Source: an uncultured Rhodobacter sp. (lineage in GTDB: Bacteria; Pseudomonadota; Alphaproteobacteria; Rhodobacterales; Rhodobacteraceae). Taken from it: a stretch of DNA of 64,000 nucleotides. Each line of letters starts with the position of its first letter. Position 1 is the first letter of the stretch. Location: positions 248,001 to 312,000 of the forward strand of contig CAMFII010000002.1 in NCBI GenBank assembly GCA_945952585.1. Direction: 5' to 3'. The notes beneath the pieces were generated by a model. That model was not told where the DNA came from and searched no databases. It worked only from the letters and a program-made list of their open reading frames with translations. Below are positions 38,075 through 41,699 of the stretch, piece by piece. A program made the position numbers and the translations under genes.

Positions 38075-38122
38075 ATCTGCCCCAACATGCGGCTACTCCT
38101 TAGGGGACGAGCGGAGTCTCCC

Positions 38123-38935
38123 ATGCGCCTTGCCTTTCTGACTGTCCTGCTGGCCCTGTTCCTGCCGGTCGCTACCCTTGCTGATGAAAGCCCGTTGCGG
38201 CGGCTGCAGACCGGGGATGACAGTCGTGGCTGGAACGCGGTCGGGCGGCTCAACCTTGGCGATCGCGGGTTTTGCACCGGCACACTGATCGCGCCACAGC
38301 TCGTGCTGACGGCCGCCCACTGCATGTTCGACAAGGAAAGCGGACGCCCGTTCACGGCCGACGAGATCCAGTTTCTGGCCGGCTGGCGCAATGGCCGCGC
38401 CGAGGCTTACCGGGGCGTGCGGCGCATGGTCGTGCATCCCGAATACACATTCGACTCCGTCAATCGGCTGGATCGCGTCGGGACCGATCTTGCGCTTCTG
38501 GAGCTGGACCAGCCGATCCGCCTGCCCTCGATCACGCCCTTTGCCACAGGCCCGCAACCGCTGGATGGCGATGCGGTCGGGGTGGTGTCCTATGCGCAGG
38601 ACCGGTCCGAGGCGCCGTCGCTGCAGCAGTTGTGCCATGTCCTGGGCGAACAGCCCGGCGTGCTGGTGCTGACCTGCGACGTCGATTTCGGGTCGTCCGG
38701 GGCGCCGGTCTTTGCGATGAAGGATGGGGTCGAGCAGATCGTTTCGGTCATCTCGGCCAAGGCCGAACTCGACGGGCGCAAGGTCGCGCTCGGCGTGTCG
38801 CTGGAGCAGCCGCTCGGCGTGGTCATGGCCGCGCTGGAAGGCACTGCGCCGGCCCTGCCGCGATCCGGCGCGAAGGTCATTTCGCTGTCGGGGGGCACGG
38901 CGGGCGGCGCCAAGTTCATTTCGGCATCGCCATGA
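38123..38935 (+). CDS. Secreted trypsin-like serine protease (first of a tandem pair)
   Basis: 270 residues. A signal peptide (MRLAFLTVLLALFLPVATLA) is followed by a trypsin-like domain with catalytic His66 in LTAAHC, Asp122 in GTDLALLEL and Ser192 in FGSSGAPVF. The oxyanion loop GSSGAP replaces the usual GNSGGP. Two more cysteines (QLCHVLG, LTCDVDFG) may form a disulfide. The C-terminal GAKFISASP is like the end of its twin. Exported to the periplasm or medium. Substrate unknown. Confidence 0.9.
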   Translation: MRLAFLTVLLALFLPVATLADESPLRRLQTGDDSRGWNAVGRLNLGDRGFCTGTLIAPQLVLTAAHCMFDKESGRPFTADEIQFLAGWRNGRAEAYRGVRRMVVHPEYTFDSVNRLDRVGTDLALLELDQPIRLPSITPFATGPQPLDGDAVGVVSYAQDRSEAPSLQQLCHVLGEQPGVLVLTCDVDFGSSGAPVFAMKDGVEQIVSVISAKAELDGRKVALGVSLEQPLGVVMAALEGTAPALPRSGAKVISLSGGTAGGAKFISASP

Positions 38936-39765
38936 TGCGGCTGCGGGTTCTGCTTGCGCTTGCCTGCCTTGCCGTTCCGGCAGCGGCGGTGGCGAATTCG
39001 GGACTCGACCAGCTCAACCGCCGGGAAGAGGTGCTGGGCTGGGAAGCCGTAGGCCGGGTCGAGATCGGCAACGAAGGATTCTGCACCGGCACGCTGATCG
39101 CCACCGATCTTGTCCTGACCGCGGCGCATTGCCTGTTCCATCGCGAAACGGGCCAGCCCGTCGATGTCGGCACCATCCGGTTTCGCGCCGGGCTGAGCGG
39201 CGATGACGTTGTGGCCGAGTCCGCAGTTGCCCGGGCCGTGGCTCTGCCCGGCTACGAGCCTGCCGGACCGACGGACGAACAGAACATCCGCCACGATCTG
39301 GCGCTCTTGCAGCTTTCGCAGGCCATCCCGGCCGCCGTCGCCGCCCCCTTCGCGGTTTCGGATGCTTCGGGCGTCAGAGAGGTCAGCGTCGTCTCCTATG
39401 CGATCGGGCGCGAGCAGTCGCTGTCCTGGCAACGCTCCTGCGGGGTGCTCGGCCAACGGGACGGGCTGATCGGGTTCAACTGCGATGTCGATTTCGGATC
39501 GTCGGGCGCGCCCGTCTTCGATCGCAGCGGCAGCAGGCCGAGGATTGTCTCGATTGTCTCGGCCGGCCATCGCGATGCCGACGGTGTCGTGGCCTTCGGC
39601 ACGGTGCTGCCGGACGGCATTGCCGAATTGAAGGCCGATCTGCGAAGCGGCAAGGGCGTACTGTCCTCCTCGGCGCCAGCAGCGACCGCGTCTGCCCCGA
39701 CGATCCGGCGGATCGGCGTGGCCACCGATCCCGGCACGACCGGCGCGCGGTTCATCAAGCCCTGA
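38932..39765 (+). CDS. Secreted trypsin-like serine protease (second of a tandem pair)
   Basis: 277 residues; the ATG overlaps the previous stop (ATGA), so translation is coupled. Signal peptide MMRLRVLLALACLAVPAAAVA. Triad His66 (LTAAHC), Asp122 (RHDLALLQL), Ser191 (FGSSGAPVF). Many segments match the upstream gene, for example GFCTGTLIA, LVLTAAHC and CDVDFGSSGAPVF, so this is a duplication. Both end in a similar motif (GARFIKP versus GAKFISASP). Confidence 0.9.
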   Translation: MMRLRVLLALACLAVPAAAVANSGLDQLNRREEVLGWEAVGRVEIGNEGFCTGTLIATDLVLTAAHCLFHRETGQPVDVGTIRFRAGLSGDDVVAESAVARAVALPGYEPAGPTDEQNIRHDLALLQLSQAIPAAVAAPFAVSDASGVREVSVVSYAIGREQSLSWQRSCGVLGQRDGLIGFNCDVDFGSSGAPVFDRSGSRPRIVSIVSAGHRDADGVVAFGTVLPDGIAELKADLRSGKGVLSSSAPAATASAPTIRRIGVATDPGTTGARFIKP

Positions 39766-39780: not shown

Positions 39781-39809
39781 CTTGAAACCGCCGTTTGCAG
39801 ATCCCAGAT
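39781..39809 (+). promoter_or_regulatory. Heat-shock sigma factor (RpoH)-type promoter for hsp20
   Basis: CTTGAAA (39781-39787), 15-bp spacer, CCCAGAT (39803-39809), close to the RpoH consensus CTTGAAA...CCCATnT. Predicted transcription start near 39816, leaving a leader of about 85 nt. Confidence 0.6.
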
Positions 39810-39815
39810 CGATGG

Positions 39816-39900
39816 TGTCCGGATGCCATGACGGGTCCGGAAAAGCCCACTGCCCGTCCCGCAAGGGAGGGTTCATGAACATCGCTCAATGAGGATGAAG
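39816..39900 (+). promoter_or_regulatory. Structured hsp20 leader, candidate ROSE-type RNA thermometer
   Basis: Helices in order: TCCGGA/TCCGGA (39818-39823 with 39836-39841), or alternatively GACGGG/CCCGTC (39830-39835 with 39853-39858); UCCC-GCAA-GGGA with a GNRA loop (39857-39868); and the final helix 39880-39897. In the last one CAUC G CUC pairs with GAG GAUG around an AAU loop, with G39884 bulged opposite the Shine-Dalgarno GAGGA. UCGCU (39882-39886) fits the UYGCU signature known for ROSE elements of hsp20 genes. At low temperature the ribosome-binding site would be closed. Confidence 0.65.
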
Positions 39901-40365
39901 ATGCGTACATTTGATCTTGCACCGCTCTATCGCGCCACCGTCGGTTTCGACCGTATTGCCGACCTGATGGATCGCGTGCTGGCCAGCGACGTCGCCCAGC
40001 CGGCCTATCCCCCCTACAACATCGAAAAGATCGACGAGAACGCCTATCGCATCTCGATCGCCGTCGCCGGGTTCTCGGCCGACGAGCTGAACGTCGAGGT
40101 CAAGGAAGGCGCGCTGATCGTTTCGGCCCGCAAGTCCGCTGATGAAACCGAGCGGACCTTCCTGCATCGCGGCATCGCGACCCGCGCCTTCGAACGCCGC
40201 TTCGCGCTGGCCGATCATGTCCGCGTCACCGGCGCGAGCCATGAGCACGGGATGCTGCACATCGACCTCGTCCGCGAAACCCCCGAGGCGCTGAAGCCGC
40301 GCCGCATCGAGATCTCGCAGCGGGCCGACGTGGAAACGAAGGCCGTCGAGGCTGAAACGGTCTGA
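39901..40365 (+). CDS. Small heat-shock protein, Hsp20/IbpA family
   Basis: 154 residues. Holdase chaperone that binds unfolding proteins. The alpha-crystallin domain runs from about 35 to 125, with YNIEKIDENAYRISIAVAGFSADELNVEVKEGALIVSARK and the FERRFALADHVRVTGASHEHGMLHIDL hairpin. The C-terminal IEI motif in RRIEISQ contacts neighbouring dimers. Three in-frame ATGs are close (39889, 39895, 39901); the last is best spaced from GAGGA and gives the usual N-terminus MRTFDLAPLYRATVGFDRI. Confidence 0.95.
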   Translation: MRTFDLAPLYRATVGFDRIADLMDRVLASDVAQPAYPPYNIEKIDENAYRISIAVAGFSADELNVEVKEGALIVSARKSADETERTFLHRGIATRAFERRFALADHVRVTGASHEHGMLHIDLVRETPEALKPRRIEISQRADVETKAVEAETV

Positions 40366-40427: not shown

Positions 40428-41699
40428 TTATTCCCGCGCGACAAGCAGCTTGTCGATCCGCCGGTCGTCAAGGTCGATGACCTCGATCCGCCAGCCCTGC
40501 AGCGAAACCTTGTCGCCAAGCGCCGGCATCCGCAGCAGGTGGTGGATCACGAGGCCCGCGACGGTTTCGTAGTCCCCCGCCTCCTCGCGCGGAATCGAGA
40601 AGCGGTCGCAGAATTCGTCGGCCGGCATCCAGCCGGAGACGAGGAACGACCCATCGTCGCGCTGGACCAGCGCCGGTTCTTCGGCCACCGCCTCGCGGAA
40701 GGTGCCGGTGATCGCCTCAAGGATATCGCCCGTCGTGATGATGCCCTCGAAGCTGCCGTATTCGTCATAGACGAGCGCGAGGTGGTTGGGCGAGGCGCGC
40801 AGGATCTCGATCACGTCCAGCGCGTCGGCGCGGTCGGACACGACCGGGACGTCGCGCATCATCTCTGCAACATTCAGGGCCCGGCCCTGCGACAGCGCGG
40901 CGAAGGCATCGGTCAGGTAAAGCACGCCAACCACCTCTTCGGCACCGCGCCGGACGGGGATGCGAGGGCGGCCTATGCGGCGGATCTCCGACAGGACCTC
41001 GGCGGCGGGGGCGTCGATGTCGATGGTCTCGACCTCGCGTCGGGGGGTCATCAGGGCGCGGGCCGAGCGGTCGGCCAGCCGCATCACGCCCGAAAGCATC
41101 TCCTGCTCTTCGGTTTCGATCACCCCTTCGACATGGGCCTCGGCCAGGATGGTGCGCACCTCTTCCTCGGTGACGCGCGACTTCTCGACGCCGCCCTGTC
41201 CAAGAAGCCGCAGCACCAGACGGCCGGAGAGGTCAAGCAGCCAGACCAGAGGTGCGGCGATCCGCGAGACCCAGACCATCGCCGGAGCCACGCGCATCGC
41301 GACGGCCTCGGGGTTGCGGAGCGCGATCTGCTTGGGGACAAGCTCGCCCACGATCAGCGAAAGATAAGTCAGGACCAGCACGACGCCGCCGACACCCAGC
41401 CGGTCGGCCCAGATCGTTGGCACTCCCTGCGCCGCGAGCCACAGCGACAGACGTGCCCCGAGCGTCGCGCCCGAGAAGGCGCCCGACAGAACACCGACCA
41501 GCGTGATCCCGATCTGCACCGCCGACAGGAACCGGCCCGGATCCTCGCCCAGCATCAGCGCCGTCTGTGCGCCCTTGCTGCCAGCCTCTGCCAGCGGCTT
41601 CAGCCGCGCGGGGCGGGACGAGACGACGGCAAGCTCGGACATGGCGAGCGCGCCGTTCATCAGGATCAGCACCAGGACGATCAGAAGTTCGGTAATCAC
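40428..41699 (-). CDS. CNNM/CorC-family membrane protein with CBS domains
   Basis: 423 residues. The DUF21 transmembrane domain (1-190) has LTYLSLIVGELVPKQIALRNPE. Two CBS domains follow (about 215-335; ALMTPRREVETIDI, HLALVYDEYGSFEGIITTGDILEAITG). The CorC/HlyC transporter-associated domain (about 345-423) is at the end. Family members are linked to magnesium and cobalt efflux; hemolysin names for this family are historical. Alone in its transcription unit. Confidence 0.92.
   Translation of the reverse strand: MITELLIVLVLILMNGALAMSELAVVSSRPARLKPLAEAGSKGAQTALMLGEDPGRFLSAVQIGITLVGVLSGAFSGATLGARLSLWLAAQGVPTIWADRLGVGGVVLVLTYLSLIVGELVPKQIALRNPEAVAMRVAPAMVWVSRIAAPLVWLLDLSGRLVLRLLGQGGVEKSRVTEEEVRTILAEAHVEGVIETEEQEMLSGVMRLADRSARALMTPRREVETIDIDAPAAEVLSEIRRIGRPRIPVRRGAEEVVGVLYLTDAFAALSQGRALNVAEMMRDVPVVSDRADALDVIEILRASPNHLALVYDEYGSFEGIITTGDILEAITGTFREAVAEEPALVQRDDGSFLVSGWMPADEFCDRFSIPREEAGDYETVAGLVIHHLLRMPALGDKVSLQGWRIEVIDLDDRRIDKLLVARE

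Follow-up and report, generated by a model that had tools for sequence, protein, structure and literature searches.

The interval 39815–39900 of the window, by which we mean the whole 64,000-nucleotide stretch analysed here, is very probably the leader of an hsp20 gene. Its Shine-Dalgarno (SD) hairpin, which carries UCGCU and a bulged G, is predicted to block the ribosome in the cold and probably opens when heated; a likely RpoH promoter precedes the leader. The pairing and the bulge are conserved among related leaders, the promoter pattern stands at a near-fixed distance from the first hairpin, and hsp20 lies directly downstream. An earlier reading of the letters as a ROSE-like RNA thermometer is supported by conservation in 81 of 81 leaders and agrees with the literature's definition of the ROSE type. 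The features, all on the + strand, are as follows.

39781–39809, +: RpoH-type promoter, −35 CTTGAAA (39781–39787), 15-nt spacer, −10 CCCAGAT (39803–39809); conserved pattern, single genomic copy
39815–39900, +: leader RNA, from sequence, fold and promoter distance; 5′ end placed at about 39815–39817 from the −10 position
39818–39841, +: hairpin I with bulged G39825 (U-[G]-CC facing GGG), from RNAalifold on 81 leaders and pair counts
39852–39872, +: hairpin II with bulged G39856 and a GCAA loop (39861–39864), from the fold; loop not conserved
39880–39897, +: SD hairpin, proposed thermosensor, strands CAUC[G]CUC and GAGGAUG around the loop AAU, bulged G39884; letters, fold and conservation
39891–39895, +: Shine-Dalgarno GAGGA, 5 nt ahead of the start codon; letters, and AGGATG in 81 of 81 leaders
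39901–40365, +: hsp20 gene, 154 aa, PF00011 by Pfam, IbpA-like

The hsp20 locus

The downstream gene had been called hsp20 from the letters, and its product does match PF00011; the nearest NCBIfam model is IbpA, at a score below that model's cut-off. The relatives used for comparison are the best 80 of 251 loci, picked by protein similarity alone, which together with the window give 81 leaders. The closest relative found in the protein similarity search is that of Tabrizicola rongguiensis (96% protein identity). The ATG at 39901–39903 was checked in the letters, and since the 80 relatives align from residue 1 at 39901, an open reading frame start at 39889 was dropped. Extra ATGs at 39889 and 39895 lie inside the SD hairpin and are in frame with hsp20 in the window; the one at 39895 belongs to the conserved strand GGATGA and, in some of the relatives (for example L003 and L004), falls out of frame.

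The same genome contains a second, more distant hsp20 gene (G000:C1:510123-510404, locus L081), where model R1, a model built from the 81 leaders, finds no such leader at E≤1. Directly upstream of the promoter lies a tandem pair of trypsin-like serine protease genes (38087–39765), and convergent with hsp20 is a minus-strand gene for a CNNM/CorC-type membrane protein with CBS domains (40428–41699). The sole Rfam gathering-level match within the window is the ffh RNA at 867–918 (63.9 bits).

Letters and fold of the leader

Positions 39880–39897 read CATCGCTCAATGAGGATG. In the RNAfold structure CAUC pairs with GAUG and CUC with GAG, and the only bulge is G39884, which confirms the hairpin with one bulged G opposite the SD that the sequence-only reading had drawn. 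Its further points on this hairpin are also borne out: removal of G39884 leaves a perfect helix of 7 bp, and UCGCU at 39882–39886 matches the UYGCU signature. The upstream helix proposed as part of a multi-stem leader folds as hairpin I. The GNRA hairpin is found in the window as the GCAA loop of hairpin II, but only 13 of the 81 hairpin II loops are GNRA, and such a loop was rejected as a family-wide feature. The bulged G39825 of hairpin I and G39856 of hairpin II had been overlooked. The fold energy of the window leader is no better than that of many shuffles (z −0.90; 38 of 200 shuffles equal or better), so the single sequence is weak evidence and the case is borne by comparative conservation.

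Conservation among hsp20 leaders

UYGCU and AGGATG stand just ahead of the start codon in 81 of 81 leaders (TCGCT in 80, TTGCT in 1), and the column of G39884 is G in all 81 of an unanchored alignment; the earlier expectation that bulge and UYGCU would be kept in related hsp20 leaders thus holds throughout. RNAalifold, given the alignment with no structure imposed, recovers both hairpin I and the SD hairpin, bulges included. Standard pairs occupy 97.9% of the pair cells of the 81 leaders, against 35.5–59.7% when the pairing is slid. Cells with changes on both sides number 80, where shuffles average 24.1. Six pairs show such changes, against 4.1 in shuffles, a count reached by 14 of 500 shuffles in this one of five shuffle measures. 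All 6 lie in hairpin I. The SD helix hardly varies: the top pair is U-G in 38 leaders, C-G in 36 and U-A in 7. Because none of the pairs of this helix is changed on both sides, the covariation supports hairpin I and not the sensor. Kinship among the sequences inflates the shuffle tests, and weight is therefore placed on the slid control and on the class-wide set described below. The leader ends in the alignment were set by a pattern requiring YGCC..GG, which also matches 9088 of 23009 control stretches. An automatic, energy-based search for hairpin I was dropped, as it chose other hairpins in several leaders. Six leaders (L007, L015, L041, L051, L068 and L076), Cypionkella and Pseudorhodobacter among them, have four stems, the added hairpin lying after hairpin II and just ahead of the SD hairpin.

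The class-wide set consists of 90 alphaproteobacterial leaders chosen by protein: 30 loci and 60 hand-picked leaders, the latter mostly one per family, taken by score order from 181 genomes with a match. Four of the 90 come from the window and its own family. The anti-SD motif is present in 80; the other 10 lack UYGCU..AGGA by regular expression, several of them being near variants, and were left out of the bulge counts. The SD hairpin has its G bulge in 70 of the 80. The same layout precedes hsp20 in other alphaproteobacteria.

The promoter

The promoter CTTGAAA...CCCAGAT, proposed earlier for a heat-shock sigma factor, is present letter for letter. Its pattern, scanned as CTTGA..C[CA][CT]ANNT with a spacer of 12–17 nt after the heptamer, is found in 77 of 81 leaders within the 60 nt that precede the apex of hairpin I. 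The count of 77 is a fitted one, in that the pattern was widened and anchored after the sequences had been seen; the same scan matches 182 of 36473 control windows. The initial pattern had matched 67 of 81 leaders, with some matches off target. The spacer is 15 nt in 72 of the 77 promoter-bearing leaders, and in 47 of them the distance from the end of the −10 element to the apex of hairpin I is 14 nt. In the 3.91-Mb genome that contains the window, CTTGAAA-N14-16-CCCANAT occurs once and the reversed control pattern not at all. The elements of the RpoH class, −35 CTTGAAA and −10 CCCANNT at fixed spacing, are thus in place, and this motif suggests that RpoH acts at the hsp20 promoter. For both RpoH paralogs of Rhodobacter sphaeroides, the TTG within the −35 element is important (PMC3441632).

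Relation to the ROSE families

The literature defines ROSE elements, in the accounts drawn on here, by UYGCU facing the SD, a bulged G, several hairpins and a small heat shock gene (PMC11342760, PMC4166951, PMC3669281). U(U/C)GCU pairs with the SD in 81 of 81 leaders, the G opposite the SD is bulged in the alignment fold, and three hairpins, within the usual range of two to four stem-loops, precede hsp20. The Rfam scores tell otherwise. It had been proposed that a ROSE model should score here; RF00435 is indeed the top Rfam match, aligning over its full length with the SD hairpins in register, yet it reaches 18.3 bits where the cut-off is 45 (E = 1 across all families), and on this count the proposal fails. 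RF02523 (ROSE_3) gives 14.1 bits against a gathering cut-off of 43. None of the 80 relatives matches any Rfam family. Under stricter filters RF00435 yields 14 weak matches in 240 genomes of the class, none of them above the cut-off; in the window's own genome it finds nothing at E≤1, and 14 control genomes gave no match either. Judged by its letters and fold, the leader would be classed as ROSE-type by the literature's definition, though below Rfam's ROSE cut-off.

Model R1 finds one strong place in the window's own genome. A candidate second copy at G000:C3:47547-47625 (18.6 bits, E 0.37) was taken as chance, there being no such leader in that stretch. R1 matches 171 of 198 own-family genomes, a lower bound, since one own-family genome without a match (G314) still displays the leader by eye (L268). 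Under the stricter filters it also matches 48 of 289 class genomes, 4 of these own-family, in a draw different from the 240 genomes searched with RF00435. With the chance match L084 set aside, 59 R1 loci remain. A script placed the motif in 56 of these, 55 of which have an Hsp20 match downstream; the remaining one (L150) has such a match once the motif is placed correctly, and the three in which the script did not place it (L135, L140 and L141) adjoin Hsp20 matches by coordinates. A leader detected by R1 in 171 of 198 own-family genomes falls below the Rfam cut-off, so that Rfam surveys undercount RNA thermometers here.

Modelled opening and proposed mechanism

At low temperature the SD hairpin with its bulged G would hide the SD from the ribosome. 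Heat would then act twice: RpoH, judging by the promoter motif, would raise the amount of hsp20 mRNA, and the SD hairpin would melt, as its structure, its conservation and the published behaviour of ROSE elements suggest. Hairpins I and II may serve as a stable scaffold, leaving the SD hairpin to fold on its own.

In the folding model the SD of the window is unpaired to 1% at 20 °C, 6% at 42 °C and 15% at 50 °C. Without G39884 it stays at 3% or less up to 60 °C in silico, against 31% with it. For AGGA, the median unpaired share across the 81 leaders is 5% at 20 °C and 14% at 42 °C, and falls to 1% at 42 °C without the bulged G. Only the direction of the modelled opening counts, since nearest-neighbour energies ignore non-standard contacts and the ribosome. 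The opening modelled at 42 °C is small, and would to that extent weigh against the thermometer reading. It also fits the alternative that control is purely transcriptional through RpoH, with the leader there to keep the mRNA stable or to make for normally efficient translation. Two further points favour this alternative: the strong conservation of the promoter pattern, and the position of hairpin I close to the predicted 5′ end, where stem-loops can stabilise mRNA, as suggested for Pseudomonas (PMC3669281). Nevertheless, all 81 leaders, and 70 of the 80 SD hairpins in the class-wide set, keep a G opposite the SD, which is difficult to account for unless the SD is controlled, and we regard purely transcriptional control as highly improbable.

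For the thermometer reading, the published mutants are instructive. Strengthening the UYGCU-type motif abolishes induction in Pseudomonas and in other ROSE-like leaders (PMC3669281, PMC11342760). When the G that corresponds to G39884 is deleted in P. aeruginosa, expression is repressed, but in P. putida that deletion alone did not abolish induction, and repression was reported only when a U had also been changed to C, turning the next pair into C-G (PMC3669281). By analogy, the P. putida result would count against an explanation of the window that relies on the bulge. The window already has that C, so the off state predicted for deletion of G39884 alone is reasonable.

A bulged G repeated in the upstream hairpins

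All three stems of the window bear a bulged G on the 5′ strand (G39825, G39856 and G39884). In hairpin I the unpaired G has a U-G or C-G pair on one side and two C-G pairs on the other, and G39825 is invariant in 81 of 81 leaders, also in the unanchored alignment, although the lower stem varies. Hairpin II, which is absent from the structure of model R1, has a single 5′-strand bulge with at least 3 bp on each flank in 70 of 81 single-sequence folds. This bulge is a G in 69, against 53 of 4050 dinucleotide shuffles. In these 69 leaders the pairs flanking the bulge change on both sides many times, the pair just below it being C-G in 33, U-A in 25, G-C in 7 and U-G in 4; the rows were selected by fold, so that the 100% pairing in this table is by construction.

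Across the class-wide set, at least one upstream G-bulge hairpin is present in 67 of 80 leaders and two in 25, while shuffles of these leaders give about 3.5% (one 3.4%, two 0.1%). The upstream single bulges on the 5′ strand are G in 92 of 102, with C as the next base in 80 of the 92, and only 7 single bulges fall on the 3′ strand against 102 on the 5′ strand. The N-[G]-C bulge is retained in hairpins I and II while other pairs change. Among leaders from outside the class an upstream G-bulge hairpin occurs in 9 of 14, a count without shuffle control in which several genomes come from one family; the hairpin I shape is found there in L297, L299 and L300, and not in all 9 hairpins. As the consensus structures of RF00435 and RF02523 both draw the G of hairpin I unpaired, this bulge is already implicit in Rfam; the RF00435 consensus draws hairpin II with no bulge. 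No description of a bulged G in upstream ROSE hairpins was found in the open literature searched, though figures of the 2001–2006 ROSE papers may show it. No prior description was thus found for the repetition in hairpins I and II, the kind of thermometer itself being known.

Possible roles of hairpins I and II

In Pseudomonas, hairpin I did not melt and the heat response persisted in constructs without it, while its disruption derepressed; seven base pairs in it are highly conserved, and the function of 5′ hairpins is described as ‘not fully understood’ (PMC3669281). That an unpaired G should be conserved in a non-melting stem points to recognition or packing. In hairpins I and II the bulged Gs may form a putative repeated module, structural or protein-binding.

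Alternatively, they could tune stem stability with no partner at all. Bulges weaken stems, and the Pseudomonas constructs without hairpin I were still heat-responsive (PMC3669281). Destabilisation should not need one particular base, however, and G in 92 of 102 upstream bulges, followed by C in 80 of 92, counts against it as the whole explanation, since shuffled class-wide sequences favour A and C bulges. Stability tuning is possible but doubtful.

If the module has a partner, the bulged G would be a packing or recognition site, perhaps, at a guess, for the Hsp20 protein itself. The R.F.R.F spacing is present in 81 of 81 Hsp20 proteins, and we take its arginine to be the equivalent of R93 of E. 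coli IbpA. The latter protein acts on the 5′ UTR of its own mRNA to repress translation, for which it needs R93, an arginine reported also in alphaproteobacterial IbpAs (PMC10474464), which makes Hsp20 one candidate. In its full form this proposal holds that Hsp20 attaches to the leader of its own mRNA, perhaps at the bulged-G stems, and keeps translation repressed until titrated away by aggregated protein, with melting secondary; conserved unpaired Gs in stems away from the SD would fit a binding site. On the other hand, the conservation of the SD hairpin is explained without Hsp20 binding, and such gating could coexist with melting. We hold gating by the protein to be doubtful. Broader still, proteobacterial ROSE leaders might be arrays of stems presenting N-[G]-C facing G, gripped by one partner, most likely Hsp20, and so sensing heat and free chaperone jointly. 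This is unlikely, the more so because it is partly implicit in the Rfam drawings and because the count outside the class has no control.

Returning to the module reading, a fixed bulged G amid changing pairs offers a single-base handle on what the 5′ hairpins do; the sensing hairpin of ROSE elements is well studied and the 5′ hairpins are less understood (PMC3669281).

Comparison with known thermometers

The closest model, the rhizobial hspA type of ROSE (RF00435), shares with the window the hsp20 gene, UYGCU with a bulged G facing the SD, and the unpaired G in the first hairpin of its consensus. It differs in score (18.3 bits against 45), in a hairpin II drawn without a bulge, in a long stem below the SD hairpin that the window lacks, and in UUGCU where the window has UCGCU. 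With RF02523 (ROSE_3) the window shares hairpin I, GAUGCC..GGGUC with its unpaired G, but that model, at 14.1 bits against 43, has two hairpins and the window three. The short ROSE-like thermometers of Pseudomonas ibpA also have a stable first hairpin, UYGCU in the SD hairpin and a small heat shock gene, but consist of two hairpins, and the available text of that study contains no word beginning with ‘bulge’ (PMC3669281). In ROSE-G the anti-SD strand likewise has a bulged G (PMC12857270). ROSE-G is described, however, with CUGCU, a second bulged G on the SD side and a location before ABC transporter genes (PMC12857270), whereas the window has UCGCU and an SD strand without a bulge. The same kind of element was reported in 2011 for a roseobacter, Nautella sp. 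R11, as ROSE-like motifs at ibpA and hspD, in the accessible part of that report for one strain and without alignment or structure (PMC3230580). Since ROSE-like motifs were thus already on record for one roseobacter, the thermometer of the window belongs to a known kind.
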